Of a stretch of 64,000 nt of DNA, positions 5,423 to 49,226 are shown piece by piece. Both the position numbers and the translations under genes were made by a program. The DNA is from Dactylonectria macrodidyma (Eukaryota > Ascomycota > Sordariomycetes > Hypocreales > Nectriaceae): contig JAGMUV010000004.1 in assembly GCA_020744425.1 (NCBI GenBank), forward strand, positions 4,154,001-4,218,000, written 5' to 3'. The notes below the pieces were generated by a model that saw nothing but the letters and a program-made list of their open reading frames with translations, had not been told where the DNA came from and made no database searches. Within the stretch, counting starts at the first letter, position 1. Each line of letters starts with the position of its first letter.

Positions 5423-6835
5423 ATGTCGGACGGCGGTATGGATGAGCCTGCCCAGTCCAAGTCCTCTCCCGAGGCGCGGATTAGGCAAGACCCCCCTGGA
5501 ATCGAGATCCTGTCGGGTCATCGTGATTCTCCGCCCTCCCCCTCGATCAACATCAACCCGCAACTCTTGCGTAACAATTCCATCGACGGCGACAACTACT
5601 TCAGTGGTCCGCGGAATATTCAGAAGCATTCGAAATGGCCGCTTATTATGCAGCTGCACGGTTCCATCCTTCCCAAGCTGATTCTCCCGCTGTCCCTCAT
5701 CGCCATCTGGTCAACCGCCATCACCGTTATCTCGAAGAAGGTTCATGATCTTAGTATCGCCTCGGTTCTTCTTACGATCCTCGGTTTCGTCGTCGGTCTC
5801 AGCCTCTCGTTTCGATCCTCGACCGCCTACGAACGGTATGCCGAGGGTCGCCGTTACTGGGGAACCTTGACCTCTGCGTCTCAGACCCTTGGCCGTATTA
5901 TCTGGGTCCACGCCACCGAAGGCGGAACCGGTGGACAGGACTCTCACGAGCTGCTTATCAAGAAGGTCGGGGCTATGAATCTTATCGTCGGCTTTGCCAT
6001 TGCCCTCAAGCACACCCTCCGCTTCGAGCCTTGCGCAAGCCAGCCCGACATCCAGCCCTACATTGCTCATCTCGATACATTCGTCAAGAGCACGACCGAC
6101 ATGTCCACCAAGCGGGAGCCTAGCTTCCACAAATCCATTGGCGAGTACCTCGGTGTCTCCTTTGCCCAAAGCAACCCTCGAAAGCTCCTCAAGAAGGCCG
6201 ACCAACATCAGGGAAACCTCCCACTCGAGATCCTGAGCCATCTGGCAATCACTCTCGACTCCATAGTTGCCAATAAGCAGTTACCACTCTCAATTCATCA
6301 GACCATGGCGTATAACCATATTACCATACTGAATGATGTGATGACAGGCTGCGACCGGGTCCTCAATACGCCTCTGCCCATTGCATACACCATCGCCATC
6401 AGCCAGATCACCTTTGTGTACGTCATCCTCCTGCCGTTTCAGTTAACCGGCCCTCTTGGCTGGGTCGCTATTCCAGCCACCATTGCGGCCGCGTACATCA
6501 TCTTCGGCCTCTTGTTCATCGGCCAGGAGATCGAAAACCCCTTTGGTCATGATGTGAACGACTTGCCCCTCGAGGTCTACTGCGATCAAATCGCCACAGA
6601 CCTGGACATCATTGCCTGCTTTGACCGACGCGACTTGGATGGCTTTCTGCTAGCAGGCATGCCGTTGCACCCCGTCAATGGTGCCTCGGGAGAGAGCTGG
6701 ATGGGCCAGAGCGAGGATAAGCTCCGGGACGCTATCAGGAACAAGCCTCGAGTCATCTTTGATTGGCGGCGTCGTCGCAATGCAGGTGCTTCTGACAGAG
6801 ACCGGATGGAAAAAGATGGAGGTGATTTGGTCTGA
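5423..6835 (+). CDS. Bestrophin-like (UPF0187/RFP-TM) membrane channel protein
   Basis: Predicted 470-aa membrane protein of the fungal bestrophin/UPF0187 family, thought to form anion channels. The start is the ATG at 5423 (MSDGGMDEPAQ), because the in-frame upstream extension has no family character. After about 65 polar residues comes the signature ending in SFRSSTAYERYAEGRRYWG, preceded by two hydrophobic segments (LPKLILPLSLIAIWSTAI and SIASVLLTILGFVVGLSLSF). Two more lie at AYTIAISQITFVYVILLPF and WVAIPATIAAAYIIFGLLFI, followed by the conserved EIENPFGHDVNDLPLE acidic motif. The cytosolic tail ends in basic and acidic clusters. Single exon, normal length. It shares no operon-like logic with the downstream regulator, which is on the same strand after a 582-bp gap. 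Confidence 0.9.
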   Translation: MSDGGMDEPAQSKSSPEARIRQDPPGIEILSGHRDSPPSPSININPQLLRNNSIDGDNYFSGPRNIQKHSKWPLIMQLHGSILPKLILPLSLIAIWSTAITVISKKVHDLSIASVLLTILGFVVGLSLSFRSSTAYERYAEGRRYWGTLTSASQTLGRIIWVHATEGGTGGQDSHELLIKKVGAMNLIVGFAIALKHTLRFEPCASQPDIQPYIAHLDTFVKSTTDMSTKREPSFHKSIGEYLGVSFAQSNPRKLLKKADQHQGNLPLEILSHLAITLDSIVANKQLPLSIHQTMAYNHITILNDVMTGCDRVLNTPLPIAYTIAISQITFVYVILLPFQLTGPLGWVAIPATIAAAYIIFGLLFIGQEIENPFGHDVNDLPLEVYCDQIATDLDIIACFDRRDLDGFLLAGMPLHPVNGASGESWMGQSEDKLRDAIRNKPRVIFDWRRRRNAGASDRDRMEKDGGDLV

Positions 6836-7417
6836 CGTGGAAGAGTAGGCATGCTTCTCGATTCAAGTGGTGAGGAAGTGCCTCTGAGAACGCCACGGGG
6901 GCACATATAACTAAGAAGTAGGAGCCATCTTGTATTCCCTTGACTATCGACACCTTTCGCTGCGAAGTCGAATTAATAACATGATACCAAGATCTGGTGT
7001 CTGTCGCTCTGCATCTTCACAACCCCTTGCCTGTTGACTCCCTGCAAACGAGCCCCCACGAGATATGATAATTGTTGAATTGGACCATGTTGGAACACCT
7101 AGGCGCAGGATGGTCACGTGAGACTGGGCAATTAGGTAGTCTCACCCTCTCCGCACCTTGGCAGCGCTACGTACGTCTCATTCTTTCCCGCTAAGTAATC
7201 CCCTACGGCTAGCTGCAATATACGGCATAGATGAATGCCCAGCTCTCCACCGGCTAATCGTTACTGTGATTATCTCACCCCTCCTGAACCGGCAAGCAAT
7301 GAGGAGGCAAAGCACGTTGGCCCTCAAGATCGGCAGCGACACTTTTCATGCAGCGACACACTTTGAAAAGCTGCTAAATAGCTCCTTGCAACGCCAGCTA
7401 AACACTTGTGATGGGCC
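6836..7417. other. Spacer upstream of Zn2Cys6 regulator gene
   Basis: No gene supported. A CACGTG E-box-like hexamer occurs within gtcacgtgag near 7115. A long open frame runs through here from about 7158 toward the regulator, but its reading frame differs from the supported first exon. Confidence 0.45.
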
Positions 7418-9796
7418 ATGGACGCGCGCAACCAGGCCGCGGCCCGTGGGCGGTCACATTCACCGTTGCGTGGCGATGAGCCTCCGCCTAAGAGACAGAG
7501 AGTCCTCGCCTGCAGGTAAGTATCATGAAAGTCACCTTGAAATTCAGTTCGCTAAACATCAATGCAGGAGATGTCGGCATAGGAAACAGCGATGTGAGGA
7601 TAAGAGGCCTTGTACCAACTGTCAGAAGTCTGGCGATGAGTGCATCCCGACTGAGCCGGCTCCGCGTCCGCAGGTGGACAGCGAGTACATGAGGGCACTG
7701 GAGGAGAGGATTGCTGAGCTAGAGTCGATGGATCCTGGCCAGAGTCTTGATCATATGCAAGGCTCGACGTCTAATGGGCGATCTGTGGCCATTCACGATC
7801 ATGGAAGGATATCTGCGACGACGTCAATACCAAACCCCTCGCTGCGGGATGTGAATCATGAGAGGCATATGGACATCCTTGAACCGCCCAACACCATCGA
7901 CGCATCGCCCCTTGGTCGTCGCTTCAGCACAGTCCCATCCCACCCTCAACACTCGCCCATGGGCGCATTCTCCCTCGGCGACGACTCTGATTCCGAAATC
8001 GATCACGCCATCCCAGGTCTCATCACATCTCCTTCAACCCAGCGCGATGACTACAACGGTGAGCACTCGCCCAGCATCAACCTCAACTCGCCTCGAGACC
8101 GGGTACATCCGGCCCAGGCTCTAGTAGCCGGAGTGTCGAGGGACGTCGAGGAGACTCTACTCGCTGCGTACCGAGAGCGGACACAGGCGCAGTATCCCTT
8201 CTTCTACTGGGGAACGTTCCTCGAGTGGCATTCAGAATGGAAGAGGTGTCCGCCGTCCGATATCAACTCGCGGCTGTGGCAGGGCTTCTTCGTCAATCTG
8301 GTATATTCAACCGCTTTATTGGTTCTCTCCTTGACGAGGATTGGAAAATCAGATGCCAGAACGTTTTACAAATGCGGCATTGCTCTGTTGCCCGCTGTTC
8401 TACGACAGCCTAATCCTGTTCTCCACGCTCAAGCATACCTGCTTCTAGGCGTACACGCGCTACATCGGAGCTCGACACATCGTATATTGTCGTTGGCGTC
8501 GACGACGATGCGGTTCTGCGTCCAACAGCAATTCTACCTCGCTGAAATGGAGCTGGAACCGAAAACGCCAGCGGCACGGTTGGAGAATCAACTTCGTCGC
8601 CGCTGCTTCTGGTCTGCATATAACCTAGACCGGTTGGTCATGTACTCCTTCGATATACCGCCTTCCATTCCCGACGCCATGATCACGACTAAGCTGTACG
8701 CAAATATTGACGACGACGACCTTCCATCCGTTGCTGCGCAAACTCCATCGGACCAAGAACTCCCCGACTCGACAACATATACCTGCGTATCCTCTTCCCT
8801 GCACATCCTTCAGTGCCGGCGAATTCAGTCTGAGATAGCTGGGTACACGCTCCGCTGGGACTACAAGGACCAATTCGCCGAGTCGCTGGACTGGCGGATC
8901 CGGATCCTGGCCGAGATGGAAAACTACAAATCGCGCGTGCAGACATTCTCTGATCCGCAAGCTAAGGGACACACTTCGAACAGATGGCTTGGAATGATTT
9001 ATCACTATACGTTATTGAATCTCTACAGACCGACTAAAGAGAGCGTACTGGGGCCTGCGGGCGATTGGTCGGTGCAGGCGAGTAGTCAAGCGTGCTTGAT
9101 GTTTCGCAAGTCCCAGATGGATCGCCAGATTGCGCAGGCATGGCTTGGAGTGAGTAAATCCTCGGATATATGAATGGGCTAAATACTAACAACATCAAAC
9201 AGTTACTTGTACAATTTCAATCTGGAATCACGCTCTTGTACTGCTTCTGGGCTACACCGCCAGAACACCGTACGGAGAACTACCACACCCCTGATGTTTC
9301 AGACGCATTGAGGGCATGTTCCAACATCCTCGCCATCATGGCCGACCGTTGGCCCAAAGCCGACTGTCTCCGAGACGTCTTCGAGCTACTAGCCCGCGAA
9401 ATCCCCCTCATCGACACAGCAAAGCGGTCCCAAACGCGCATCAGCGAACGAGCCACGGCAACGATCCGGGAAAAGCTCCCCCAAGTACGCGCGCTCGTCG
9501 TCCACCGTTCAATTCTGCGCATGCTGGACGAGATGGTATCAGAGGACTTCCCGCACATTGGTCTGCCCCCCTCGCCGTTTCCGCAGCAGGTTGTCGCTGA
9601 AGCTCCGCAGGCGCAGCAGCAGCGGTTGACGCTGAATCCGCAGCTGGAGACGCCGCCGGGGACTATGACGTTTGAAATGCCGTTTTCTGCCGATCAGATA
9701 TATTCCGTTGATAGGGGGGGCATTGGGGTTTCTACCCTGGGGACAGAGGAGTTGTTGGAGTTCCCGCGTGTGTTTGACTTTGATACCTGGGTGTAA
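7418..9796 (+). CDS. Zn2Cys6 transcription factor with fungal-specific regulatory domain (TF1)
   Basis: Model join(7418..7515, 7568..9149, 9203..9796), 757 aa. Exon 1 encodes MDARNQAAARGRS and ends inside the zinc cluster. Splicing gives ACRRCRHRKQRC followed by a CxxC...C second half, a complete CX2CX6C-type binuclear cluster. Both introns (52 and 53 bp) have GTAAGT/GTGAGT donors and CTAAAC/ACTAAC branch sites. A linker with a short coiled-coil-like segment (EYMRALEERIAELES) follows. The regulatory middle-homology domain contains YPFFYWGTFLEW, VHALHRSSTHRIL and RRRCFWSAYNLDRLV. It is presumably a nuclear DNA-binding activator or repressor of unknown target. The upstream in-frame 5' extension beginning near 7158 was rejected, because the cluster then reads through the intron. 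Confidence 0.85.
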
Positions 9797-12034: not shown

Positions 12035-15000
12035 CTATTCACGATCGTAATTCACAACCTGCCACGACCTCATGTTATCGTTCTCAGTACAGAACGGTCC
12101 GCCCAGCGACTCGCCAGGACATCCCACGCCGGTCTTGTCGAGGGACAGCCGGAAGCCCGTGCAATCATCCGTGTCGTAAAAATAAACCATGAGCGAGTCT
12201 GGCCACTCTCCCGTTGGCGCGCACCACGACCTGAGCGTACCAAATGTCTGCTGGCAGGTGCTAGGACCTCTTCCGGTTTGCTGCAAGAACGGAATCGTGC
12301 CCAAGGTGCACTGTTGGTCACCCCAGAGACGCAGCATCCAGGGATCACCGGTTTGAACTGGCGGGTCTGGCTCTGCCACTGAGGTTGTCGTAGGCTGGGT
12401 AGGCAACGTACAGCTGCATCCCTTGTGAGCGTCGGCTTGACACACGCCTAGCTGCTGGCCGTCGACGGCGATGCCCTGGCAGCCGGAAAAGGAACACGGG
12501 CCCAGGACACCGCAGAAGCCGGGTGTAGATGTGTCTGGGAGACAAGAGCATCCCTTGAAAGCATCCTGACACGTTGCCTCTCCAGCACCGTTGGCCCGGC
12601 CGTTGCATCCATTGCTCTGGCACGACTGGGGCTCGCCGCACTCGAAGCCGGGGGTATCGGTGCTGGGAAGACACTGACACCCCCTGAATGCGTTGGTACA
12701 GGTGGCTTGTCCATCGTTCCAAGTGCCGTCGCAGTCGTTGAGCTCGCACGACTTCTGCTCGCCGCAGTCGAAACCAGGGGTGTTGGCGTTAGGGGTGCAT
12801 TGGCAGCTGTCAAAGTCGCCTCCCTGGCAAGTAGCCTGTCCATCATTCACCGCGCCGTTGCAATCATCGCAAGACTGGCTCGTAGGACAGGGCGGCTTGG
12901 ACGTCGTCGAAGGCGGCTCGGAGCTTGTAGCCGTGCTAGTGGCTTGACCGCCGCACGCACAGCCCTCCCACTTGCCTCTACAGGTAGTGTTCTCAGCATC
13001 ACAGTCGGCGTCACAAGGAAGATTGGATACTTGAGGACATATCCTCGGCGTGTCGTCTGATGGGACGCATTGGCAGCCGTATCGGCCGCCGCCAAAACAT
13101 ATTGGCCCTACAGTTGGAAACGGAGACGGCGCGATTCGGCCGTTGCAGCTTTCATCCTCACAGCCAACCGGATCGTTCGGATCGCATCCGCCGTAGTTCA
13201 TACCGTCTTCCTCTGAGGCCGTGGGCATGGGGCAACCCGCGATGGTCGTCGACGTAAAGGGTTCCGCGGAACACTCCACTACTGTGGCGGCAGGCTGCGT
13301 GGTGCAAGAAAGCGAAGTTCCATCAACCGAGCTGCATGATACAATCAGATCTGTGGCAGTGACGGTTCTGCATCCGCTCGTCGTCGTGTTATCGTCGCCG
13401 TCGTCACCACCGCCGGGAGGGGGAATAGGCGGCGGCGTAGAAATAATAGGCGGGAAGCAGAACCCTACAAGACAGGGAATGCAGATAGGAATAGGTGGGA
13501 TAATACAAGGGATGAGATCGTCGTCGTCATCATCATCATCATCATCACCTGCTGAAGACGTGGGCACAGCTGTAGGACTCGGGAACAACGTCAGCTCGAC
13601 GCCGTCGGTCGTGATGGTCGTCGTTTCCGTGACTGAGGGCAGATCGATCGTGTCGGTTCCGATGATGGCCCACGTCGATGTAAAGGTGACTTCGATGCCG
13701 TCGGAACGGGTCCACACGAAGATGTCGGTGGGAGTGGCCGACGTAGTAACGCCTGTGGTGGCTGAACCTCCTGTGGAGACGGAAGTGAAGGCGGTAGATG
13801 AAGGGCCTCCTCCTGAGTTGGTACCCGTGTTGGTGCTGCCGCCATTTCCATTTGTTCCAGTCTCTGTGGCAGATTCACCGGTAGTTGTGCCGGTAGAGCC
13901 TGAGTCTGTTGTTCCAGCACCACTGCCATCGGTAGTCTCAGTAGATGATCCAGAAGCAGTGTTTGTAGAGTCATCAGCAGTAGTATCAGTAGAGCCCGAG
14001 TTAGTGTTACCAGGAGAGCCACCCTCGGTAGTCTCAGTAGAAGACCCAGAAGCAGTGTTGGTAGAACCACCAGCAGAAGTGTTGGTAGTCTCTCCAGAAC
14101 CTTCGGTAGAAGTTCCCGAGGCAGTATCTGTCGCACCAGTCTCAGCACTAGTAGCGCCAGACTGAGTGCCGCCCGCACCTCCAGAAGGAGTGTTTGTGGC
14201 GTCAGTGTTGGTGTTGGTAGCTCCAGTTTCGGTATTGGTTGCATCTCCGGTTGCAGTGCTGACAGATCCAGACGCAGTGTTTGTAGACTCTCCAGTATGG
14301 CTAGTTTCAACGTCCGACTGAGTGTTTGTCGCGCCGCTTTCGGTGTTCGTAGAGTCTCCAGTGGATGTGTTGCCAGCGCCAGTTCCAGTTGCTGTTGAGC
14401 CTCCTGGAGTTTCTGTAGCTCCAGGGCCAGTGTCAGTCGAGCCACCAGGGGTGTTTGTAGCACCACCCTCGGTGTTGGTTGCGTCAGACTGGGTGCCGGA
14501 TGTACCACCAGAGGCAGTGTTTGTGGCCCCAGATTGGGTGTTGGCACCACCAGACTCAGTATTGGTCTCACCAGGACCTCCAGGGGTAGTGTTCGTAGAG
14601 TCGCCAGAGTTAGTCTCAGTTGAAGAACCAGAGCCAGTGGCGGTCGACTCTCCAACATCACCGTTCGTAGACGTGCCAGAGCCGCCAGGAGTTCCGGGGG
14701 TACCAGAAGATCCAGAGGCGGTATCAGTTGCACTTCCACCTGGGGTGTTTGTGGAACCTTGACCAGAAGTATTGGTTGAATATCCCGAGGGGATACTCTC
14801 CCAGGTACCAGGGGTGGAATCTGTATAAGACACCGAGGCAGTGTTGGTAGAATCCTCAGCTGATGTCTGAGAACCAACGGCAGTGGTCTCACTGGTGTCC
14901 CCAGTTGGGTACATTGTAGAACTCTCTTGGGACACATCAACGTGGGAGGATGTATCTGAAGGGGCCTCCCCAGAGCTACTCCACGACGCAGAGACAGTCA

Positions 15001-15304
15001 CGCTGGAAGAGTCTGGCGAACCCCCAGGACAGCACTTGGCGCCGCAGCAAATTGTTCCTTCCAACCACTCCGTTAGTTTCATCCGATCCTGAGTTGCCTA
15101 GATTCCTTGCAGATGATATCTTCACATACCTGCAGGGCACACCTTCTGCTTCTGCCCACACACGTTCGTGCAACATTGACTGCCGTCGGCTGTCGAGACG
15201 CATCGTCCATCGCACCAAACCTCGCCGTAGCCACAATGGGCAGTGACGGAGGGCGTATAAGCCAGCAGCCACAGCGCCGCGAGGCCAAGGCCCTTCAACT
15301 TCAT
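12035..15304 (-). CDS. Large secreted Cys-rich, Ser/Thr/Gly/Asn-rich mucin-like protein
   Basis: Model complement(join(12035..15057, 15130..15304)), 1065 aa. The signal peptide is MKLKGLGLAALWLLAYTPSV, followed by TA. The 72-bp intron (GTATGT donor, ACTAAC branch) joins a Cys-rich N-terminal module whose continuation reads CPAGTICCGAKCCPGG. Next comes about 400 residues of degenerate TNTASG/GATNT-type repeats, likely O-glycosylated. There follows a globular segment (FVWTRSDGIEVTFTSTW), an Asp run, and a Pro/Ile/Cys segment (IPCIIPPIPICIPCLVGFCF). Then about six CxxC-DG-x-ATC-x-GCxC modules occur, several starting TPGF-CG, and a final ~110-aa domain (WMLRLWGDQQC to RSWQVVNYDRE). There is no GPI-like hydrophobic tail. 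It is probably a cell-wall or extracellular adhesion/matrix protein. No catalytic motif was recognised. Confidence 0.82.
13518..13547. repeat. TCN/TCA trinucleotide microsatellite encoding poly-Asp
   Basis: A run of tcg/tca triplets on the plus strand encodes an uninterrupted aspartate run in the minus-strand mucin-like protein. Triplet periodicity keeps the frame if the run expands or contracts. Confidence 0.85.
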
Positions 15305-20436: not shown

Positions 20437-23358
20437 ATGGCTACCTCAGGTAGTGTCTTCTCCGACACGCTGCAGGAGATCACCAACACCAAACTCGACG
20501 AGCTGTCCAAGCGGCGCTCCCGCTTCGAGCTGGCAAAGTCGATGATCTTGGATGCCATCCAAGAAGAGACTGATGCTGTCAAGCGTCTCGGACTTCTGAG
20601 CAGCGGCGTCAAGACCTGCTTCGCTATCAAGCTCGACAAGGCCGGCAAGGTCATCGCCAAGCAGACAAAGCATGCACGGCTAGAAACTGAGCTAAAGAAC
20701 CTCGACCGCTTCCTCCCGCAAGCTCGGTGCGATCCGTCCATCTCGACGAAGATGCTAGACCGCTGGGAGCAGTCTCTCCTTTCTCACTTGAACACGCAGT
20801 CCCTCAAGTTCCAGTACGCCTCGCTTTACGGGCAGCTCGTCACCGAGTGGCTTTCCGGCGACAAGGAGGAGGAGAGCGCTGCTGGTGACGATGTCGAGAT
20901 GGGCGAAACTTTTGAGGATGTCGGCGATGCTGCCAAGCTAGAGTCTAGGATGGAATGGGAGAAGATGGTGTTTGAGCCTCCCAATGTGAATGAAGCGGCC
21001 CTCAGCCAGTATCTCGACCGTCTTTTTGGAGCTGGCAACGAAGAAAAGAAGCCGATTCGTAGCGCTTTGGAGAGACTCCGGGAGGAAGTAACCGATTTCG
21101 AGGCAGAGATGGCCTTGCCAACCCAATTCGACATTGCCTCTCTCCGATGGGTCATCCGAGGCCTCCACTCTTCAGACCTGCTCTCCGATGAGAAGCGCGA
21201 GGTCTTGAAGGACTTTGAGAGCAACACCATCATCCTCAACGAAATCGCGGACGTCCTCAACATGCGGATGAGCGCTCTGCGCTCGTGGGCTTGGTGTTCT
21301 GATACCCCGGTCATGGTGGAGATGCGACGCAAGATTAGCGGCATCTACAACATCCATATGCACGAGGATCTTCTCCAGGCCATCTTTCTTCAGTACATTG
21401 GCGTGAAATGGAGCGTGTTCTTCAAAAGGGTCTTCAAAGAGTTCCGTTGCTCCAAAGACGCATGGAAGTCGCCACGCAAAGATATGCCCAAAGCTGCCAA
21501 ACAGCGACTCGGGTACTACCTCGGGCCGCTCTCGCGTTCTCCATGCCTCCAGGCTGCCCGAGCTAGGATCAACTTCAAGAAGTACTTCATGGCACAGCTC
21601 CTGGACGATGAGAAACAGTCGACAGACACAGCAGACGGGGAAGTCGAGGCCGAGTATGAGCAGTTTGCACCGGAGAGCCTCAAACGTAGAGCAGGTGCGG
21701 GCATGCCGGTTCAGGCGCCTCGAGTATCTCTTGCATCCAAGGCTTGTCGGAAAATGGCGGCTCCCGCTGTTATGAAGGTGGCATCGTTTGGGGAAGATGA
21801 CGATGACTATGACACCGATGACGAGGACGAAGACGAAGAGGACGAAAAGCACAACCCCATGGCGCTCAAGCAGGACTTGCTTCACTTGTTGTCTACGGAA
21901 ATCACAATCAACAAACGCCTCTACGGCGAGATGACGGCCTTCCATTCCGTCTTTGAGAGTTGGAACCCCCGGCTGCCGCATGCGACTATCTGCATCGTTC
22001 TTAAATACCTAGGCGTCTCAGAGACTTGGCTTGGCTTCTTTACCAAGTTTCTGCTCGCGCCTCTCAAGTTTGTCGACGACAACATGGACGCGCCGGCACG
22101 TACGCGCCGTCGAGGCACTCCCGCTTCGCACGTCCTCAGCGACGTCTTTGGAGAGACGACGCTGTTCTGCCTAGACTTTGCCATCAACCAGTCGACCTCT
22201 GGGGGCCTATTGTGGCGTATCCATGACGATGTCTGGTTCTGGTCCCGGGACCATGGCGTCGCGGTGCAAGCGTGGAAGACGGTGAGTGACTTTGCTAAGG
22301 TCACCGGCACGGAGATCAATTCGGCCAAGACCGGGACTGTTAGAGTGCCAAACGAAGCCAACAAGATCCTGACAATCGATGAAACCCTGCCCGTTGGTGA
22401 GATCCGCTGGGGTTTCTTACGTCTGTCCCCCCAAAACGGCAGGTTCGAGATCGATCAAGCCATGGTAGACGCGCACATAGACGAGCTGCACAAGCAGCTA
22501 CACGACAAACCCAAGAGCATCTTCTCCTTTATCCAAACGTGGAACACGTACGCGGCGACCTTCTTCACGTCCAACTTTGGCAAGGCAGCCAACTGCTTCG
22601 GCCGCGAGCACGTCGACAACATGCTCGCCACGCATGAGCGCATCCAGCGACACGTCTTCTCCAGGCTGCCCGGCGATGGCGACGAGAAGGTCTCAAGCAT
22701 CGCCGAGTACCTCAAGAAAGCTCTCAAGCAGCGCTTCGGCATTGAGGATGTCCCGGACGGCTACTTGTACTTTCCCATGGAGCTGGGCGGCCTGGACCTG
22801 CAGTCGCCGTTCATCTCGTTGTTGCAGATTCGAGACGAAGTGCCCGAGTCGCCGTCGGATCTACTAGATGCTCTTGAGAAAGCAGAGCGTGACGCGTATG
22901 AGCGCTCCAAGACGGAGTTCCTCGAGGGCAACACTAGACATCAGCGATACGCCCTCGACGACCCAGACTGGGAGCCCGAGTCAGCCCACGACAAGTCAAC
23001 TTTCATGCCTTTCTCCGAGTACACGCTGTACCGCGAAGAGTACAGCTTCGACCACTACAACGAGGGCACGCGGCTGCACGACGTGTTCCGCGCACTGATG
23101 AAACGACCTTCCGACAAGAGCATCGACCCGGATGACAACACCATCTGGACGGCGCACAATCAGCTCGCCGGGCAGGCGAGCCTACGTGGCATCACGAGTC
23201 ACTGGCATAGCATGGATCCATACTGGAAGTGGACATCTATGATGTACGGTCCTGAGATTGTGGATCGCTTTGGGGGGTTGAACATTGTCGATCCGGGTTT
23301 GTTGCCTATGGGCATGGTGAAGATGTTTAGGGATAAGAGGGTTAAGTGGCAGGGTTAG
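20437..23358 (+). CDS. rvt: rvt-type reverse-transcriptase-related cellular gene
   Basis: Single-exon 973-aa protein of the rvt class, single-copy cellular genes derived from reverse transcriptases that are not carried on mobile elements. The N-terminal ~150 residues are helical and coiled-coil-like (LQEITNTKLDELSKRRSRFE). The RT palm occupies roughly residues 490-670. It shows LPHATICIVLKYLGV (from 513), the GTPASHVLSDVFGE segment (from 560), the catalytic pair in LLWRIHDDVWFW (Asp597-Asp598), the KVTGTEINSAKTGTV motif-D region and a WGFLRLSPQNGRF grip-like region. A strongly acidic insert (about 453-473) precedes the palm. A long C-terminal extension follows, as usual in rvt proteins. No integrase, RNase H, endonuclease, LTR or target-site duplication was seen. 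Family members are reported to polymerise nucleotides; the biological role is unresolved. Confidence 0.88.
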   Translation: MATSGSVFSDTLQEITNTKLDELSKRRSRFELAKSMILDAIQEETDAVKRLGLLSSGVKTCFAIKLDKAGKVIAKQTKHARLETELKNLDRFLPQARCDPSISTKMLDRWEQSLLSHLNTQSLKFQYASLYGQLVTEWLSGDKEEESAAGDDVEMGETFEDVGDAAKLESRMEWEKMVFEPPNVNEAALSQYLDRLFGAGNEEKKPIRSALERLREEVTDFEAEMALPTQFDIASLRWVIRGLHSSDLLSDEKREVLKDFESNTIILNEIADVLNMRMSALRSWAWCSDTPVMVEMRRKISGIYNIHMHEDLLQAIFLQYIGVKWSVFFKRVFKEFRCSKDAWKSPRKDMPKAAKQRLGYYLGPLSRSPCLQAARARINFKKYFMAQLLDDEKQSTDTADGEVEAEYEQFAPESLKRRAGAGMPVQAPRVSLASKACRKMAAPAVMKVASFGEDDDDYDTDDEDEDEEDEKHNPMALKQDLLHLLSTEITINKRLYGEMTAFHSVFESWNPRLPHATICIVLKYLGVSETWLGFFTKFLLAPLKFVDDNMDAPARTRRRGTPASHVLSDVFGETTLFCLDFAINQSTSGGLLWRIHDDVWFWSRDHGVAVQAWKTVSDFAKVTGTEINSAKTGTVRVPNEANKILTIDETLPVGEIRWGFLRLSPQNGRFEIDQAMVDAHIDELHKQLHDKPKSIFSFIQTWNTYAATFFTSNFGKAANCFGREHVDNMLATHERIQRHVFSRLPGDGDEKVSSIAEYLKKALKQRFGIEDVPDGYLYFPMELGGLDLQSPFISLLQIRDEVPESPSDLLDALEKAERDAYERSKTEFLEGNTRHQRYALDDPDWEPESAHDKSTFMPFSEYTLYREEYSFDHYNEGTRLHDVFRALMKRPSDKSIDPDDNTIWTAHNQLAGQASLRGITSHWHSMDPYWKWTSMMYGPEIVDRFGGLNIVDPGLLPMGMVKMFRDKRVKWQG

Positions 23359-30866: not shown

Positions 30867-33122
30867 ATGGCTGATAAACGTTCGAGCGTCGTGGTCGGGT
30901 GCCTCCTCGATGTATCGGGCTCCATGCGCAACGCTCTCGAAGTCGGGCGATCAGATAATGGCGAAATCGAGCGCCTTCGTGCTGTGCTTCGTGCCACGTT
31001 GAAGGTCGCTCGTGCAGAGCAAAAGAAAAACCCCGACACTCTCATGTTTGTCGGTGTATTCGGACTCAACGAAGGGATGCGATACCCACCAGTGGTGGAC
31101 CTCTGCGGAGTGGTGGACGCACTGCTCGACATTCGAGGCGACAACAGGTCTGGCCACGATCTCCTTGTCGAACTCGCAGGCCAGCATGATCGGGCGTATA
31201 TCGAGAGGTATATCCGGAGCAAACTCGCCGAAGATGAGGCTCGCATAGTGTATAGACATCTGCGGGGGGATGAGGAACGTGTCACGGAGTTTGTCGACGC
31301 GATCCCGACTGAGGAGGAGAATCGTCAAGCCCGAGGCCGACTTGCCAGCCTGGGGCGCTTTCTTGGCGTTGCGGCTGGCTTTGCGCTTAGCGCTGCAATG
31401 AACACTGTGGCTACGGGACCAGCGGGCATACCCATTACCATTGCCTTGAGTATGAGTGCTGGTGGTGCTGGCAGTGTTACTGGCGTGGTGGTTGCAAACC
31501 GAACTGCAGATGCCATCGAGGATAATAGGGTGGACAACTCGGAAGCTCTGAGACTCGCCCGCAACATCTGGGAAGAGTGGTGGCAACGGTTTGCTAATTT
31601 CGAACCGCGCTCAGTCGCTAACGTTATCAACCTGCTGGAGCGACTGCAAGAACACTCGAACGATGCGTCAGCCGAAGACGGTGAAGATCAGCCTACCAAC
31701 GAAGACCAGCCTACCAACGAAAATCGGGGGAATCTTACGGTGCTCGATACGCTACGCCGGTACATGTACGGTCGCACACCATTGAAAAAGGCACTGCGTC
31801 GGGCGATCAAAGCGTTTAGGGAGTCTCGCCAGCCAGAGAGTATTCGGCAACGCGTTCTCATATTGATATCAGATGGCCATTCCACAGATGGAAACCCGAT
31901 CGATCTTGCCAAAGAACTGACCGAGGCGGATGACGAAAATGAGAAAGCTACCTTGGCTGTGATCCACCTCACTAGCAACTCGAATATACCTCGCCGTCGG
32001 CTCTATGACAGCGAAGCCAAAGACTGGGACAAGGGCCAGCGCACACTCTTTCAAATGGCGAGCAGAGTGGCAGGAGATGTACATCCAGTTCCTGTACTGG
32101 CCTCAATGGGCTGGAGAATCCCCCTCTCTGGCGAATTCGCGTTATACACGACGGTATGCACTGTTGAGGCTCTGGACGAGTTCTGCTTATTGCTGCTTTC
32201 TGCTCGCTTCGGATCGGCCGATACTCTGCTGGACCTCGTCGGCCGGACCAACCTCGATGCTTACATCAACGATGAGTACATACGCACACGGAGGAATCCC
32301 ACCAATCAAGAAAACTCGCCGACTTGCTACGCCCATGCCACTGCTGCAGTACTGCACATGGCGCTCCTGCGTGTGGTAGGCCGGGAAGGCGGTCACCCTG
32401 ACATCAAGAAGATCCGAGAGAGAATCCTGAATGAGTGTCCACCAACAAAAGATGGGGGATCTGTCAAGGACGTACTTGAGAAGGCAACTAGCTCGACTTG
32501 GTACCGCCCACTACTCTTTCGCGAGGTCGACGTCATGGGTGCGCGGCACGCGGTCCTACGTCGGCGCCCTGTACTGACTACATTCTACCTCTCAGAGTCG
32601 GGCTGGAAATGCTTCATTAAGCACTTCAAGACCGAGGCAACCTCCAAGTCGATACTCACACGTCAGGATATGACTGTCCACACATCAGATACTCCGGTCA
32701 GTGGCCATGCCGTTGTCCTAACGGGCTGCGGACCCCGTTCGCTTACGTTCCTCAACTCATGGGGGAGCAACTGGGGCGACGAAGGCAAATTCAGTATCGA
32801 GGACCACACAATCTTGGAGTCAGCTGGGGCGCCCGTGTGCTTTTACGACGTGTATTGGCTAGAGAGAGACCTTACCGAGCCAGAGCGCAAGGCGTTTGAC
32901 ACAAAGGCGGACGAGGCGATGTGCTCACAGGCAGCGAAGTGGCCTAGCATTTTCGAATTCGAAGCTCTCTGCCCAGGCTGTGTCAAAACTGCGCGAATAG
33001 CCAAATTCACTGGAAGTATCCGGAAGGCTATATGCCCAAACTGCCATCAATCGTTCACGCCTGAGCCAGGCCATCTAGTGCAGGCGCTCTACATGCGTGC
33101 CGGGCTTGGTGATGCTCCGTGA
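30867..33122 (+). CDS. vWA domain + papain-like protease + zinc-ribbon protein
   Basis: Single-exon 751-aa protein; start ATG at 30867 (MADKRSSVVVG). Residues 8-90 begin a von Willebrand A fold with the MIDAS motif DVSGS (Asp15, Ser17, Ser19). Its third ligand appears only at RTPLKKAL (Thr304), with LILISDGHSTDG after it, so about 200 residues are inserted into the domain. That insert holds a Gly/Ala-rich hydrophobic stretch (about 163-210). Residues ~465-665 are papain-like (C1 fold): Gln481, Cys487 in NSPTCYAHATA, His614 in SGHAVVL and Asn630 in NSWGSNWGDEG. The spacings (6, 127, 16) are close to papain's. A C-terminal CPGC...CPNC zinc ribbon (702-726) closes the protein. With no signal or pro-peptide it is probably intracellular. 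A protease tied to a metal-dependent adhesion module is plausible; substrate and partner are unknown. Confidence 0.87.
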   Translation: MADKRSSVVVGCLLDVSGSMRNALEVGRSDNGEIERLRAVLRATLKVARAEQKKNPDTLMFVGVFGLNEGMRYPPVVDLCGVVDALLDIRGDNRSGHDLLVELAGQHDRAYIERYIRSKLAEDEARIVYRHLRGDEERVTEFVDAIPTEEENRQARGRLASLGRFLGVAAGFALSAAMNTVATGPAGIPITIALSMSAGGAGSVTGVVVANRTADAIEDNRVDNSEALRLARNIWEEWWQRFANFEPRSVANVINLLERLQEHSNDASAEDGEDQPTNEDQPTNENRGNLTVLDTLRRYMYGRTPLKKALRRAIKAFRESRQPESIRQRVLILISDGHSTDGNPIDLAKELTEADDENEKATLAVIHLTSNSNIPRRRLYDSEAKDWDKGQRTLFQMASRVAGDVHPVPVLASMGWRIPLSGEFALYTTVCTVEALDEFCLLLLSARFGSADTLLDLVGRTNLDAYINDEYIRTRRNPTNQENSPTCYAHATAAVLHMALLRVVGREGGHPDIKKIRERILNECPPTKDGGSVKDVLEKATSSTWYRPLLFREVDVMGARHAVLRRRPVLTTFYLSESGWKCFIKHFKTEATSKSILTRQDMTVHTSDTPVSGHAVVLTGCGPRSLTFLNSWGSNWGDEGKFSIEDHTILESAGAPVCFYDVYWLERDLTEPERKAFDTKADEAMCSQAAKWPSIFEFEALCPGCVKTARIAKFTGSIRKAICPNCHQSFTPEPGHLVQALYMRAGLGDAP

Positions 33123-33461: not shown

Positions 33462-33631
33462 CTATATGTCACATCACGCGGAAATGTATTCCTCATCCGA
33501 CACATCGCCTCAACTCACAAGTGCAGTACACCTCATCTTCCAACCACAACACTTAATTCACACCAGTCAATACCAACCAATACCAAACAACACCATACAA
33601 CACCAGTCAAAGCCAGCCCAGCAACTATACA

Positions 33632-33886
33632 ATGTGTTACTATCTTTGGAAAACCTGCATCCTCTGCAAGGTCGCTCAACCTGCCGAGACAATCAGCTGC
33701 AACGAGTTCAAGGCGGCTACAGCGGCAGCGGCGGCCGCAAAACAGCCTCTGCCCTTTCAAGTCGAATGCATCGAGAAGAACCTCAACGCGCCACGTCAAT
33801 GTGGAGGCGAGCTCAGTTATCGAGACTGCGAGGTACCCAAATGTCCTGGGAAGAACATCGCATATGTCATGGGTGGAGCCGTCTAA
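33632..33886 (+). CDS. Small cysteine-rich protein (MCYY-type)
   Basis: An 84-aa protein in a single exon, with eight cysteines (2, 9, 12, 23, 46, 57, 66, 71), a CILC pair, an alanine run in the middle and a C-terminal CEVPKCPGKN. It resembles the many fungal short proteins that begin MC(Y/F)Y and space cysteines so as to suggest zinc binding. It has no signal peptide, so it is not an ordinary secreted effector. It lies 509 bp downstream of the vWA-protease gene on the same strand, with its own TATA and CCAAT elements. Real coding is supported by the promoter, the ATG context and the cysteine pattern, but no function is known. Confidence 0.55.
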   Translation: MCYYLWKTCILCKVAQPAETISCNEFKAATAAAAAAKQPLPFQVECIEKNLNAPRQCGGELSYRDCEVPKCPGKNIAYVMGGAV

Positions 33887-36335
33887 ATCACGGCGTGACG
33901 ATGCAGCAAGAGGCGTATGCTCGTCGTGCTTCAAATCTTTGCTCAAACAAGCGCAAAGTGGCTAGCTACCTTTACATCTGAGGACGCAAACATGAGGGAT
34001 AAGCAGCCTAGAGAAAATAGCAACAAGGAACGGTCGGGGAACTTAAAGATGGGGTGAATTCACTAAAAATCACAAAGTCAACTTCCATCAATAGTTTTCT
34101 TACTACAATTTACGCCTCGCTCAGTATATTATGCAACCGTGAGCAGATAGACTTTGTCAGAAAGCGTCGTAGATGGGTTATTCAGCTAACTGGGAAGTAT
34201 CTTGCTAGATCACTAGTAGATGATAGAGGTTAGGTTCCATTGCTATGCTTTGAGCCTCACTCTACCTGAATAAACAAATTTGAAGGCTACATCAAATCTC
34301 AGGCCACTTGTTCGCTATTAACAAGCCACAGTCGATATCATATCCTATGAGAACCAATGAAGAGCCTTGTCGAGTATCTTTGCCGAGACTATGGTTGATC
34401 GAATATTTGCGGAGGTTGGTTACGTTGTGTGTCTTCCTATGCCACCCACGTCTTGGACACTTGCGTATCTAGACGCGCCAGTGGTCCTTACCGAAACTGA
34501 ATGATACCACCTTGATGTCCCGTGCTACCAGAACCCTGTACGCTCAGTCAACGCGAATTACAACCTACACTCTCGAGCCTCATAGAGATGATTTTAGCCG
34601 AAGCTTCACCCAAATTTGATGAGATGATAACTAGATAAATGATCTGGCTTGGAATTTTAGGGATGTGTCGGCACATTATAGCTTGGTGATGCTGTTTTAC
34701 TTGGTTACCCTATAGTCTCTGCGAGATTGGAACTGATCAAGAAGCCTTTAATTTCGCGATGCAGCGCGCGTTGCCGTTGACTAGCTAAAATCTCACTTAT
34801 TATACCTGGTGAATAAACACGCATTGCAATTCGTGCAGAAGGCAGGTAATGTTCTTGGTGCGGGCGTAGTACGCTACAAGTGTCAAATGTAGAGAACAAG
34901 CCACTAACAGTAGCGCATCCTACCAGGCAAACGCTAGAAAACGAAACAGCGTTACAGCACTTGCCTATCTTTTAGCTCGCTGAATACGAAGGTTAAATCA
35001 AGCATGACGATCCCGAAGACGAATCGCCTTGATCTAGCTACCGCATCCGCGCTTACCGCACTTGTTCGTCTTTCCTGAGCCTTCATGGGTCCTCCGCACT
35101 TATTCAGGTCCTCATAATACACCTTGAATACTGCTTCGTCGTGATTTCCTTAATGCCTAATATTGTGCACTTTTGCATCTGTGTGAAAATTACATGGGAT
35201 CGTGTAGCCCCTGGCGAGTCAGCCCTCGTATCCTCGGTTCTGTAGGTCGGTTTCAGGTAGTGTCGAGCCTCAGCTATAAGCGATGAAGGTTGCGAGGATG
35301 GGTTGTGAGATATTCGGCTCTATGATGGCGTCCATACTGGCCAACAAGCTGCAGGACGTGCGGGCGTGCTACGTACTTATTGAATTGCATCAGTGGTTTT
35401 AACTTTTGGCTTTCAAGATGGAAGAAATGGCGTTAGATATCGAACAGGTGATGATCATCAAGCATGGTCCGTCCATGCGCTAGGCCGTCGTTAATCTCCC
35501 GAAATTTCGGGGCGACTCAGGAACATGGTTTGATAATTCATCACCTGAGTTCCCGAGTCCGATGTAACCCTTCTTCTTTTGTAAAAAGGAGAGTGCATTA
35601 GCTCCTACACTAGGGACGAAGAGTATTTATCGTGAACTAGTCATGAACGCATACGAAGCAGCCCTGTCGCGGGCCGTCAGCCAAGACGGCGGGATAGGGA
35701 CCTTGGCGGATAGATTTGATTTTGCGGATTCGTCCTGACAAAAATCTTACAGGTTTGGAGACGGAATCACTAAAATATGCTTCACAAGTGTCGCAAAAAT
35801 CTCCATTTGAGGGTTCGGCTACCGGTCGTATATGGGGCCGTTATGGAGAAGAACTAGTTGTCACCCAATGGAGCATCCCACAATACTATGTGGTCCGTAT
35901 GGCGTCTGGGAAAGACAAGGTTCGGGCCCCTTATTCCCACAATGGTCCCCTAGCCTATATCGGCCCAGATATGGTACTCGTCATGGCATTCAGGGACACC
36001 GACAACCGGGTTGAATCCCATGCTTGGCAGACAGATAGCCAGTGGAGTAAGTGCGGAATTTGCACGCAGTAGGCTAGACGAGCTATTGATTTCGGATTCA
36101 CGAGAAACTTAGGCCTGGCAAGTGCCTACTACGTACTTAGCAACTAAGCTTACTGGATTAAGGTGAAGGGTCATGGAATTGTGGGTTGCCGACGCGGCAG
36201 TCTAGTTATTATTCGGTCTAGCATAGTATCTACCGGCAGGGACATTAGTCTAGCATAGCCTCTCGTCTTTTGGCACCCTTGACCCCAGACTTGGCAGCGA
36301 GTCAGTCAGTGATGGAATCCATACTGAGTGGCAGC
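33887..36335. other. Long gene-poor spacer
   Basis: AT-rich, stop-dense sequence with no intact gene. The only coding-like stretch is the possible exon at 35753-36053 (separate entry). Confidence 0.5.
35753..36053 (+). pseudogene. Possible orphan exon or gene remnant
   Basis: An open stretch of about 100 codons follows a CTGAC branch and TTACAG acceptor-like site and ends at a GTAAGT donor-like site (TGGA|GTAAGT). It encodes a plausible folded sequence with WSIPQYYVVRMASGKDK and FRDTDNRVESHAWQTD. No start codon, upstream exon or downstream exon could be joined. It may be a remnant of a beta-propeller/lectin-like gene (weak guess) or chance. Confidence 0.25.
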
Positions 36336-44319: not shown

Positions 44320-47300
44320 TTAAAACATGTCTGTCAAGCCACCTGCATCAAAGGGATCTCCAAAATCGTCCCTCCTCGCCAATTGGCCACTCTCTTCACC
44401 AGTCTCATCCTCGTCCTCAAGGCCCGACTGCCACGGTCGATATAGCGGTTTGAGTTTCCACTGCCAATCAGGAGAGTGACTTCCACCCGCAGCTTCTATA
44501 CCCTCTGCCATGTCGTTATAGCCATTGACTGATGCCCAGTCTAACGGGGTGAAGCCCTCTTCGTCTGTGGGCGATGGGTTGATTCCTGGTACCCTCAAGA
44601 GGGCGTTGGCTGCTACTCGATTTCCTGTCATTCCCGCGGTGTGAAGAGCCGTATATCCGCGATAGTCACTGCCGTTCACGTTAACGCCTATTCCAGCAAA
44701 TGCTTTGATCAGCCACTCGACTGAAGACAAGACGGGCTGGGCTTCCGTAGAATCAATCTCTCCGTCGACTTCAACTTCTTCGACAACCTCATCCAAATCA
44801 CGAACAACGAGTTTCTTACGATGAACCCAGTGACAGAGGTAGTGAAGCGCTGAGCGTCCAAAGCGATCGGTGTGACCGGCCTGTCGGGCAATTTCTGACC
44901 GGGAGCATTTTGAGTGAATGAACCTGACTAAGTATTCCACCGTCTGAGCATTCTCACTCAGCACTCCTAGAAGAACAATGTTTCTCTCAAACTTGTCTTT
45001 GAGGTCCCATCTTGCCCCGCGCTGGATGAGCGTTTGTGCGCACTCGACAGATCCGCCCATGAGAGCATGGTGTAGTGGCGTAAAAGATGAACTATCTCGT
45101 TTATTGAGGTCAACGCCAATGCCTAGCAAGACAGACACAGCGGGCTCATTCCCAAATATGCATGCAAAGTGTAGAGGCGTTCGGCCTTTGGTATCTTTAG
45201 TATTAACCTGAGGCTGAAGAATCGGGAGACACTGCCGGATAAAGCTGTCGGAGTGCCACATGACGAGGTAATGCAAGAGACTCCTTCCTTCCAAGTCAGA
45301 CTTGTACGTGCCAAAGTCTCTGATGGGCCCCTCTAGGAGAAGGCTAACGATTGCGCGATGGCCTTGTTCGGCAGCGACGTGAATGGGGAGTTTGCCAAAA
45401 TTGTCTCGGATAGAATAACTCGCGCCAGCTTGGAGCAAGCTCTTGCAGGCAGCTTGGTTCCGATACTCGGCTGCGACATGGAGAGCGGTGCGTCCATCGT
45501 GAGATACGATATTCAGCCAAGATGCAGGCTTGGTTATGAGAAGGGACGATAAAGAATCCCAATGAAGCTCGCTAGCCCAATGAGCAATCGTTCTGCCTCT
45601 CGAATCGGTGGCGTCGTCATCGACTGAGAATTGTCGGACCAGCACATTGACTATCTGTTCCCAGTCTTGTTGAGTGCAGAGCATAAGGAGCTTTGACCCA
45701 TGATCGTGCGACCTCTGTAGAACGGAGTAGGGAAGCTTTTCTAGGATCCGCGCCACGCGTTGCTTCACGCCGTGATACGCGTATCGTTCTAGTAAACTGA
45801 AACCGTCTCTGTCAATCAAGACAGCTTTTCTTGGATCACGAGCGAGAATCAGGTTTTCTACAGAGTGCCATCGAAGCGACGCAGCTCGGTAGATGAATGT
45901 CCGCGGAGTCTCGTCCTCGATGGGATTGCCATACCAATTAAGCTGCACTGGGCCAGGGAGAATGCGATCCTTGTCGAACCAGTTTTCGGGAACGTCGGAC
46001 CGGGCGATGAGCTTGACGGTGCTGTCTTGGGACTTGCCTTCAGAAAACACTTGGTCCAGAGCGTTGAGCCCTTGGCTATTCTGGTCGTAGATGTCAACGT
46101 CCTTGCGACGGAGAAGCTCAAACGTGACTTCCTGAAGCTTCGGTTGTGATAAGCACCACTGAAGTGCCGTCCAGCCCTTTTTACTTTTTGCATTGACTTC
46201 CACACGAGGATCACCCAGTAATCGTATAATTAGGGATGGATCAACTTCAGCTTCGAGAGCAAGGTGAAGTACATCATCAACCGACTGGTCCGCCGACCTT
46301 AGCCGAGTGTTGTCATTGGCCAAGAGCATTTCTAGAGACTGTTTCCGATCCTCAAGCAGAGACCATAGCAACGGTGTCCAGCCACGGCAATCAACCCCAT
46401 TGACATCTTCCCCGCGATGGACTAGATTAGAAAGCACAGCAGGATAGTCTCCCGCCTTCAAGATGAAGTGCATTGGAGGCAGACGAGAGAACTGATCAAC
46501 GTTGGCCCAGAAGGGACCGCGGTGGTATTTCGCCATGCCTAAAAGGGTGGCAACCATAAGAAAATACTGAGACTGGCGGAGTAGGGCAAAATTAGTCAGT
46601 GAATTGCTCACTTCAGGATCAGACGATCCATGGTCGCAATGGTAGTTCCAGTAAAAGACGCAGTACGCGAACAAGCCTCGGGTGCGTTCATCCAACTCTG
46701 TCTGACCCAGTCTCAGCATGGCTTTGCCGATTCTTTCAGAAACCTCGGAGTCATTCTCGAAGGCGTCGGTGTCGTCGTACTTGCTAAAATCGAAGGAACC
46801 GAAAAGCTCCTCTCCTCGGAGAGAGTTGATAAACATGTCCCTCATCCTATCCGCCATGGCCACCCGCGCAATGTCGCGGAACTTGACCAGGTCTCTGAAG
46901 CTGAGGACTGTGATGCAACTCTTGGCCAACTCAGCGTCGATGTCTGCTTCGCGAACGAGGAACTTGGAGAGAACTCCTGAGCTGGCGTCTGATGGCTGAG
47001 GACCTGGAGACGTGAGGAGCTCCTTGACAGTAGTGTGGGCGAATCTGACATTCAAATCTGGATCGACGCGGAGCAAGTACCCAAAGGCTTGGTCGAACTG
47101 CGTGTCAAAGTTGAAGCCGAGCGCGTTGTTGAGGTCAGACCAAGTCCTTTGACCGGTACTGATGGCTACGGCGTGCTGAAGCTCACTCAAGGTGAGAGGT
47201 TTGCGAGAACCAAGCACCCAAGTGAAGCCGATTTTTGCAACGTCTTGTGCGTCTTCTGGTATCCTCTCGAGAAGAGAGCAGTACAATGCCTTCGCCTCAC

Positions 47301-49226
47301 CGGATAGTCTGCGAAGACCTTCGAGCCGAGACTTGATGACTTGCGCCGACCAGTACGAAACTCCGGCTGTAAAGTGGCGCCAGGCCAGAGACGCTTGTAG
47401 AAAATTGCCCTCGGAAATTTCCAGCATTGAGTCTTCGATGAGGTTCTGATACTGCCACGGAATGGTCCCGCTGGAGCAGAGATCTTCTAGTTTGGCGTTG
47501 ATAAAGTGCCGCACATCTTCAAAGACGACGTCTTGCCGTCGAATATCGATCCACGCTACGGAGTTGACAACGCCTCGTGCTGAAGGACCACTGCGATCGC
47601 AGATGATGAATTTGAGCTTTTGACCAAGATCACCTGATACTAAGCGTTGAATTCGTTGAATCAGTGTATTTCGAGACTGTTCCTGAACCTCGTCAATAGC
47701 ATCGATGAGGATCCAAAAGTCAAAATCAGGACTGCGCTGTAAGACTGTAGTTAAAAGCCTCCAAATAAGGTGGTACTTGTCCTTGTCCGAGTCATGGTCG
47801 CCGATAGCCTCCATATCTGATTCACTCAGGTAACGGAACAGATTCTTGCTGTGAGAGAGGGCCTGGTACAAAAGAGACTGTGCAATTTGCAAGTCGGAAT
47901 CTCGTAGCCACTGCTTCGAAGTGCAAAAGAAGAAGGCAACTATGGACTCCCTGACAGAGATTTCTGTGTTCTTCTGGAGCCAGCGCCGGAGATTTTCGAT
48001 GAGAAACCTGGAGATGGTTGTTTTGCCGATGCCTGGGGCTCCAGATATCCATAGAATCCGGTTCTGGCGTTGATCTCGCCACTCTTGGAAGACAGAGCTC
48101 TCGGTGATCCATGAACAAGTACCGGGGCTTGGTCGAGGAACGCTCCTTAGGACCTCATCCGGGTCGATAGTCTTGATGGAACGCAGAAACTGATCTCGCA
48201 GTGGGCTCTGAGTGGTATGAGCGCGGTTAAGGGCATTCTCGACCATTTCTACAATGCAGTCAAGGACCATTTGGTATTTCTCATTCCTCATGTTTGAGAA
48301 TTTGCACATTGATCGATGATCGGCCTCGATGGGAATGGGGATCTCGTTGGGCAGGCCGATGACTGCGGAATCCTCCTCCACTATCAGACCTGATCGTTTG
48401 GTGGGTTGACGCTCATAGATAGAAAAGATTCGGTGCAAGGACTCGGAACGCTCGATGAACTGCGTACAAGTGGCACCCAGCATTGCTGATTTTCGCTTGA
48501 GATCTTCTAGAAGCTGCGTGCGAATAGACCCTAGTGTCAGAACGTCGGCCAGCTTTCCTAGCAAATTTCCCCAGTAAGCCGTGTCGGATCCGCGGTGAGG
48601 AGTGCCGAGGAACATGATGCCAAACGTGTCTCTCGTGATGGAACTGTATCGCCGGCTTCTCTCATGAGCAATAGCGAGCGCCCTTTTCACGATAACGCCC
48701 CCGAGGCTGTGGCATATAAACAACAACGGCCGCTTCTCCGTGTGCCCGAACTGCCGTCGTTTCGCCATCAACCTCTCGAGCAGCGTTCTCGAATGATCGT
48801 CGACACCAGAGGCCGAGCCAGCAAAGGCGACGCGCGAGTTATACCCGTAAGTGAAGATGCGCGCGTAGGGAATATCGAGCGGCAGAAAGTCTGCGAGCCA
48901 GAGTTTCCCATCTTGAGCCCAAGTTTTGTATGCTTTTCCATTGAGGCCGTGGACAGCGACAATGCTAAGTTGAGATGGTCAGCAATTTGACAAGGGTTGG
49001 AGAGTCAGGCCACGCACTCAACCTTGGTCCCTTGAGCGTCGAAGTCGTCGCTTTTGAGTGGCCATAATTGGAATAGACCAAATAGATCATCTTCGTCGGC
49101 ATGCGAATCAGATGGTGTTGCCTGCGTCAATGTCGTGGAATGAGAAGTCCGACCCGCTTCGCTTCCCATCGAAGGACCATCATCATCAACAGAAGATTTC
49201 GAGAATCGCTCAATAAGCTTATCCAT
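44320..49226 (-). CDS. NLR-type STAND protein: lipase-like + NACHT + ankyrin repeats
   Basis: Model complement(join(44320..48964, 49018..49226)), 1617 aa. The 53-bp intron has a GTGCGT donor; the join gives TKVDIVAVHGLNG. Residues ~70-290 form a lipase-like alpha/beta-hydrolase domain with the nucleophile in ICHSLGG (Ser156) and GTPHRGSDT. The NACHT NTPase follows, with Walker A GAPGIGKTT (378-386) and Walker B-type FWILIDAIDEV (about 486-496). About a dozen ankyrin repeats fill the second half (for example GRTALHVAAEYRNQAACKSL and GRTPLHFACIFGNEPAVSVL). In fungi this architecture belongs to NLRs implicated in non-self recognition and programmed cell death. The hydrolase would be the effector, NACHT the switch and ankyrins the sensor (inference). 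Acidic Ser-rich N-terminus, no signal peptide. Repeat copies look divergent rather than near-identical. Confidence 0.9.

Follow-up and report, generated by a model that had tools for sequence, protein, structure and literature searches.

Bleomycin hydrolase (C1B) and the calpains are papain-fold proteases of the cytosol in which access or activation is governed by other parts of the protein; neither is known to have a vWA domain or a C-terminal CxxC ribbon. Papain-type and vWA domains do occur together in the vWFA-C1 peptidases, a family named in 2023 from metazoans, choanoflagellates and fungi (PMC10380794). According to the accessible text of that paper, the family is widespread in basal metazoans and protostomes and sparse outside metazoans, fungi and choanoflagellates. 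The same text states that fungi have lost all ancestral eukaryotic C1A peptidases. What it lists in fungi is vWFA-C1 together with some C1A genes gained by horizontal transfer, and it describes transfer of C1A genes from bacteria, Streptomycetes included, to Ascomycota. This loss is what lends interest to a conserved papain-type enzyme in fungi, and the wide occurrence of the family in basal metazoans and protostomes means that a result obtained in a laboratory fungus could carry over. The accessible text gives no function for vWFA-C1, and the word ‘zinc’ is absent from the paper's main text. In the open-licence literature the term vWFA-C1 was found in no other paper, and no description of an insert in the vWA domain or of a ribbon in vWFA-C1 was found in the accessible parts of that literature.

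The window analysed here is a stretch of 64,000 nt from Dactylonectria macrodidyma. At 30867..33122 (+) it holds an open reading frame which, judged from its translation and its homologues, encodes a vWFA-C1 peptidase of 751 aa in a single exon, with one stop codon at the end and no need for an intron; vWFA and C1A papain domains lie on this one chain according to the predicted folds. All further coordinates within the gene are on the same strand. The frame is already open upstream, from 30813, and the ATG at 30867 fits as the start because the distance from the DVS motif to the start is identical to that of the window protein in 54 of 105 family members. The gene itself is the sole match to the protein in its own genome (77.3 Mb searched). 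A sequence-only reading of the locus had picked out D15-V-S17-G-S19, T304, D336, Q481, C487, H614, N630, C702, C705, C723 and C726, and each of these residues is found in the translation, as are the spacings of 6, 127 and 16 along Gln481/Cys487/His614/Asn630 and the CxxC-x17-CxxC arrangement; the residue pattern is far above chance. Its suggestion that the protein may be previously undescribed has to be given up, since vWFA-C1 had already been named (PMC10380794). The same reading had allowed that an already characterised family would count against it, and here the accessible text of the paper divides the answer: the family is named and mapped there, but not characterised.

A protein search returned 144 homologues at E ≤ 0.001 from 7,995 scored candidates, of which 120 were listed. 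The listed rows with a legible organism name presumably all belong to filamentous ascomycetes. Among 121 records including the window protein, the alignment took the 105 with lengths of 640-800 aa and dropped the other 16 for length; 55 members were scanned with Pfam. Identity to the window protein lies between 40 and 64% among the aligned fungal homologues (88 of the 121 records), and the core is conserved. Fourteen positions were checked, comprising D15, S17, S19, T304, D336, Q481, C487, H614, N630, W632 and the four ribbon cysteines; all fourteen are retained in 89 of the 105 aligned members, while the remaining 16 show gaps alone (8), substitutions alone (3) or both (5). This is a genuine and well-conserved family. 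Those 89 members retain the active site along with the MIDAS, which speaks for a working enzyme in which the vWA site is important.

In the structural model the N-terminal part of the protein adopts a vWA fold, as had been proposed. Its N-terminal half, residues 4-95 (30876..31151), carries the MIDAS motif DxSxS (D15, S17 and S19, retained in 102, 102 and 101 of the 105 aligned sequences), and its C-terminal half, residues 297-430 (31755..32156), supplies T304 (103/105) and D336 (105/105) within SDGxSTDGxP. The Pfam VWA model matches the window protein at E 9.3e-06 and 50 of the 55 scanned members at E ≤ 0.01. DxSxS, Thr and Asp come together at the predicted metal site throughout the alignment, and this near-invariance indicates a selected binding site, which would be expected to bind a metal ion and an acidic residue of a partner. 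Between the two halves, residues 96-147 (31152..31307) form a conserved helical module inside the vWA domain, with model helices at 96-106, 110-119, 122-134 and 136-145; its identity is 0.82 between close pairs, a term used here for the 181 pairs of family members with an overall identity of 65-95%.

Ku70, TFIIH subunits and integrins are among the best structural matches to the predicted vWA part. The presence of Ku70 and TFIIH subunits beside the integrins is consistent with a vWA domain that serves as a constant scaffold, as it does in Ku, TFIIH p44/Ssl1 and Rpn10, and that would hold a constitutively active protease within a larger housekeeping complex with no gating; the single match in the genome and the conserved core of the fungal homologues also agree with such a role. 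However, the hypervariable segment beside the MIDAS described below would be odd for a constant scaffold, as would, for a housekeeping component, the sparse occurrence beyond metazoans, fungi and choanoflagellates that the accessible text of PMC10380794 reports, and we consider this arrangement unlikely.

The vWA domain is followed by a helical linker, residues 431-466 (32157..32264), which occupies the place of a papain pro-region and is modelled partly at low confidence (pLDDT < 50 at residues 448-462); residues 431-476 are 0.85 identical in close pairs. Structures were predicted for the whole protein and, separately, for residues 431-751, and in the model the protease part, residues 467-665 (32265..32861), adopts a papain fold. 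Gln481, at the oxyanion-hole position, and the catalytic Cys487 (32307..32327 from the first to the second), His614 (32706..32708) and Asn630 (32754..32756) follow in the papain order and are retained in 103, 102, 105 and 103 of the 105 aligned members, in agreement with the papain-like domain of the sequence-only reading. A profile built from ten papain-part sequences matches papain (PDB) at E 4.5e-04 and places papain Q19, C25, H159 and N175 on the Gln, Cys, His and Asn of the family, the N-terminal Gln-Cys piece alone scoring 3.0 bits. The closest folds listed for the protease part are classical papains and cathepsins, at 14-22% identity in the structural rows. Sequence profiles alone undersell the papain part of this family: Pfam Peptidase_C1, a detection aid and not a definition, scores the window protein at 13.1 bits against a cut-off of 20.7 (E 0.099) and reaches E ≤ 0.01 in 8 of the 55 members scanned, while the relative P0175 lies above the cut-off with 23.3. 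Likewise, PF00112 has no match in the D. macrodidyma genome at E ≤ 0.001, and the same profile misses the window gene too. In line with the absence of a signal or pro-peptide noted earlier, no signal sequence is seen by eye and no model of a papain pro-region is among the nine Pfam families listed for the window protein at E ≤ 1.

The residues of the active site vary in few members. Asn630 is replaced by His in the nearest relative, P0002, and by Val in P0097, and the alignment has gaps at C487 in P0056, P0066 and P0094; a protease domain reduced to an inactive remnant that only binds could be read from these cases. Against this, the catalytic Cys, His and Asn are kept in at least 102 of the 105 sequences, which makes a remnant very improbable, and the window protein is predicted to be catalytically active.

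The C-terminal zinc-ribbon-like motif, residues 699-735 (32961..33071), contains the two conserved CxxC pairs of the CxxC-x17-CxxC pattern, from which a zinc ribbon had been predicted; C702, C705 and C723 are each retained in 101 and C726 in 102 of the 105 aligned sequences. Curated zinc-ribbon profiles stay below their cut-offs on the window protein, and at E ≤ 0.01 Zn_ribbon_5 matches two of the 55 scanned members and three other ribbon models one each. The motif is shared with P0175, a protein of Reticulomyxa filosa, and the ribbon travels with the protease and likely holds a substrate or partner. That a double CxxC ribbon accompanies the catalytic unit both in fungi and in this rhizarian protein could also mean that the papain-like domain is specialised within clan CA, perhaps as a ubiquitin-like-protein peptidase or transferase, with a ribbon that recognises the modifier; deubiquitinases and transglutaminase-like proteins are placed within the papain-like superfamily in the accessible text of PMC10318531. 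The retention of Gln, Cys, His, Asn, Ser631 and Trp632, each in 101-105 of the 105 members, and the classical papains and cathepsins among the closest listed folds speak against such a specialisation, which we regard as quite improbable.

Between the N-terminal half of the vWA domain and the MIDAS threonine (residues ~147-225) lies a segment that the sequence-only reading had overlooked. This hypervariable, glycine-zipper-rich segment, residues 148-224 (31308..31538), has GxxxGxxxG at residues 163-171 and a high content of Ala, Gly and Val, and ranges in length from 7 to 101 residues across the 105 members, with a median of 61. Its identity in close pairs is 0.44, compared with 0.63-0.85 in the nine further regions that were measured. 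When all pairs are taken, identity is 16% in the segment and 20% in residues 265-296, and the segment is thus the most variable part of the protein yet not the sole variable part. The motif GxxxG occurs 301 times in the segments of the family against 119.6 (sd 9.3) in composition-preserving shuffles, none of 500 shuffles reaching 301, although the member sequences share ancestry and are not 105 independent trials. In the model the segment forms low-confidence helices at 149-178 and 204-223 around a turn, with pLDDT < 50 at 177-203. The best mean hydropathy over 19 residues of the segment is at least 1.6 in 52 of the 105 members, below 1.2 or unscorable for shortness of the segment in 33, and between these limits in 20. 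Hydropathy alone is no proof of a membrane segment, since 27 of the 105 proteins reach the 1.6 threshold outside the segment too and the window protein's own segment, at 1.55, lies slightly under that threshold. On a FastTree tree built without the segment columns, the two hydropathy classes, which label 85 of the 105 rows, require no fewer than 18 changes, where 200 shuffles give 26.6 on average; the classes follow descent in part and switch often.

The enrichment in GxxxG would fit an executioner or sensor of fungal immunity or allorecognition, in which the zipper segment would insert into or recognise membranes and the protease would then cut a cell-death substrate, for example a gasdermin-like protein. 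Matches at E ≤ 0.01 to Gly-zipper_Omp (4), C19orf12-like (3) and ApoL (1) among the 55 scanned members point in the same direction, although they are weak, with a best E of 1.5e-4 and no position within the protein given, and the 33 segments of low hydropathy or insufficient length are difficult to reconcile with membrane insertion. A precedent is available in fungi, where, according to the accessible text of PMC12881547, proteases serve as sensors adjoining gasdermin genes and multidomain sensor proteases take part in cell death. Forty ORFs of at least 150 aa were listed in the window and 20 of these were scanned with Pfam; no gasdermin match was found among the 20, and gasdermin PF04598 has no match in the D. 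macrodidyma genome, the control genomes likewise giving none. A gene of NLR type, with a NACHT domain (NPHP3_N) and many ankyrin repeats, was recognised by the Pfam scan at 44320-48771 (-), ~11 kb from the window gene, but places of NACHT type are common throughout this genome, where NPHP3_N has at least 150 scored matches and 344 first-look candidates in 77.3 Mb, or ~0.12-0.29 expected per 64 kb if evenly spread. The NLR neighbourhood is therefore weak evidence and was given little weight as a clue to function. The window protein itself has no Pfam match to NACHT or NB-ARC at E ≤ 1. An executioner or sensor of immunity or allorecognition as outlined above appears distinctly unlikely.

The other scanned neighbours include an aminotransferase, an isocitrate lyase family protein, a bestrophin, an MFS transporter, an alpha/beta hydrolase, a rhodopsin-domain protein, a DUF3632 protein and fungal transcription-factor domains, one of them with a Zn2Cys6 cluster, and nothing recognised beside the window gene among the 20 ORFs hints at a two-gene module. 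A small Cys-containing frame lies just 3' of the gene at 33557-33886 (+), overlapped in a different frame by an ORF at 33466-33981 with no Pfam match. Two long frames of the window, 20437-23358 (+) and 12035-15082 (-), encode 973 and 1015 aa, respectively, and have no Pfam match at E ≤ 0.001.

Outside fungi, a search with the papain part reached P0173 from Didymodactylos carnosus, which we take to be a rotifer, at E 1.1e-29. A search from P0173 led in turn to P0175 from Reticulomyxa filosa (Rhizaria) and to partial proteins, of which three carry a precomputed vWA hit. P0175 shows 38% identity over protease and ribbon and has four of the four ribbon cysteines, and the partial protein P0178 shows 35% identity over 338 columns that cover the C-terminal half of the vWA domain, the linker and the start of the active site. 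Judged from these partial relatives, the vWA-papain-ribbon order likely occurs beyond fungi too. A record from Xylogone sp., P0166 (547 aa), combines by eye an NLR-like N-terminal part, which has no Pfam match at E ≤ 0.1, with a fragment of vWFA-C1 protease and ribbon, and may be a gene-model chimera.

In prokaryotic contigs, 17 loci match the family, each within residues 299-427 (vWA) alone, and by eye the frames around the match hold no papain part at 14 of the 17 (all except L008, L011 and L017). Nine of 296 Actinomycetota genomes match; two of the 11 places listed touch the papain His/Asn region alone (model positions 559-602), and no vWA-papain fusion is found among these 11 places, a sample in which up to three candidates were scored per genome. 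With no fusion among the listed actinobacterial places, a bacterial origin of the fusion gains no support from this sample, although a sample does not prove absence. The best of the 17 loci, from Actinacidiphila (L002), encodes a 504-aa vWA protein whose residues 246-427 align to the C-terminal half of the fungal vWA domain (hhalign probability 98.8, E 6.1e-17), sharing YGATPL, SDGDSTDGDP and HPLP...GWHVPAG in the aligned part and, by eye, DVSGSM and a similarly placed insert; unlike the window protein, it has no protease domain and its chain stops past the vWA part. This locus has divergent vWA genes at 5839-6990 (-) and 6909-8423 (+), which may be an undescribed bacterial pair; the profile of the fungal family matches each of the two. 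Three viral loci carry short C1 ORFs of phage type (L028 4437-5192, L029 1071-1730 and L030 4476-5132) with LDQGxxGSCTGNA and LTFLNSWG, and were placed by eye outside the vWFA-C1 family.

We propose, tentatively and with a confidence just short of even, that the fungal vWFA-C1 peptidase is a predicted intracellular cysteine protease that would be switched on or aimed by the binding of a partner to its vWA domain. As the pro-region is missing, a papain enzyme in the cytosol would have to be silenced by other means, for which the vWA part and its insert are the obvious candidate; together with the helical insert, the vWA part would act as an intramolecular brake in place of the pro-region. The brake would be released by partner binding, or by membrane binding through the glycine-zipper segment, while the zinc ribbon would keep a substrate or assembly partner beside the active site and the fast-changing segment next to the MIDAS would follow a partner or target that itself changes. 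The ligand- or partner-gated cytosolic protease of the sequence-only reading is kept as plausible, whereas the self/non-self or stress-response role suggested there finds only indirect support, from the hypervariable insert and by analogy with the fungal sensor proteases of PMC12881547, as its accessible text presents them. An extended version, which we regard as improbable, is an NLR-independent intracellular immune protease on one polypeptide, common to fungi and animals, in which a fast-evolving glycine-zipper hairpin, looped out by the MIDAS, would sense a non-self partner or damaged membrane and free a papain enzyme for which zymogen processing is unnecessary, with the ribbon holding a death or defence substrate. 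If the proposal of a partner-gated protease is true, the protein would be a simple model for the silencing of an intracellular papain enzyme by a metal-site recognition domain with a hypervariable glycine-zipper segment, and would give fungal conflict biology a new candidate.

The prokaryotic MoxR-vWA conflict systems, as presented in the accessible text of PMC7159879, have a peptidase class other than that of the window protein and a MoxR ATPase, which the window protein lacks; no MoxR match was found among the 20 ORFs scanned out of the 40 with a length of at least 150 aa. The gasdermin-activating sensor proteases of filamentous fungi (HET-Q2 S8 and CHAT; accessible text of PMC12881547) are likewise multidomain and intracellular, but belong to other protease classes, and no gasdermin neighbour was seen beside the window gene. 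The accessible text of PMC9815663, on fungal NLR effectors, contains neither “papain” nor “vWA”, and that of PMC10318531 does not contain “VWA”. The Pfam models proper to bleomycin hydrolase and the calpains are absent among the nine families listed for the window protein, and it is set apart from the papain and cathepsin C1A enzymes by a vWA domain ahead of the protease, a ribbon after it and the lack of any recognised pro-region or signal. With the vWFA-C1 family, by contrast, it shares the joining of vWFA and papain (C1A) domains on one chain; its ribbon and its vWA insert do not figure in the accessible family description (PMC10380794). The family has been known by name since 2023, and what most deserves pursuit in it is the hypervariable glycine-zipper segment and the shared ribbon.
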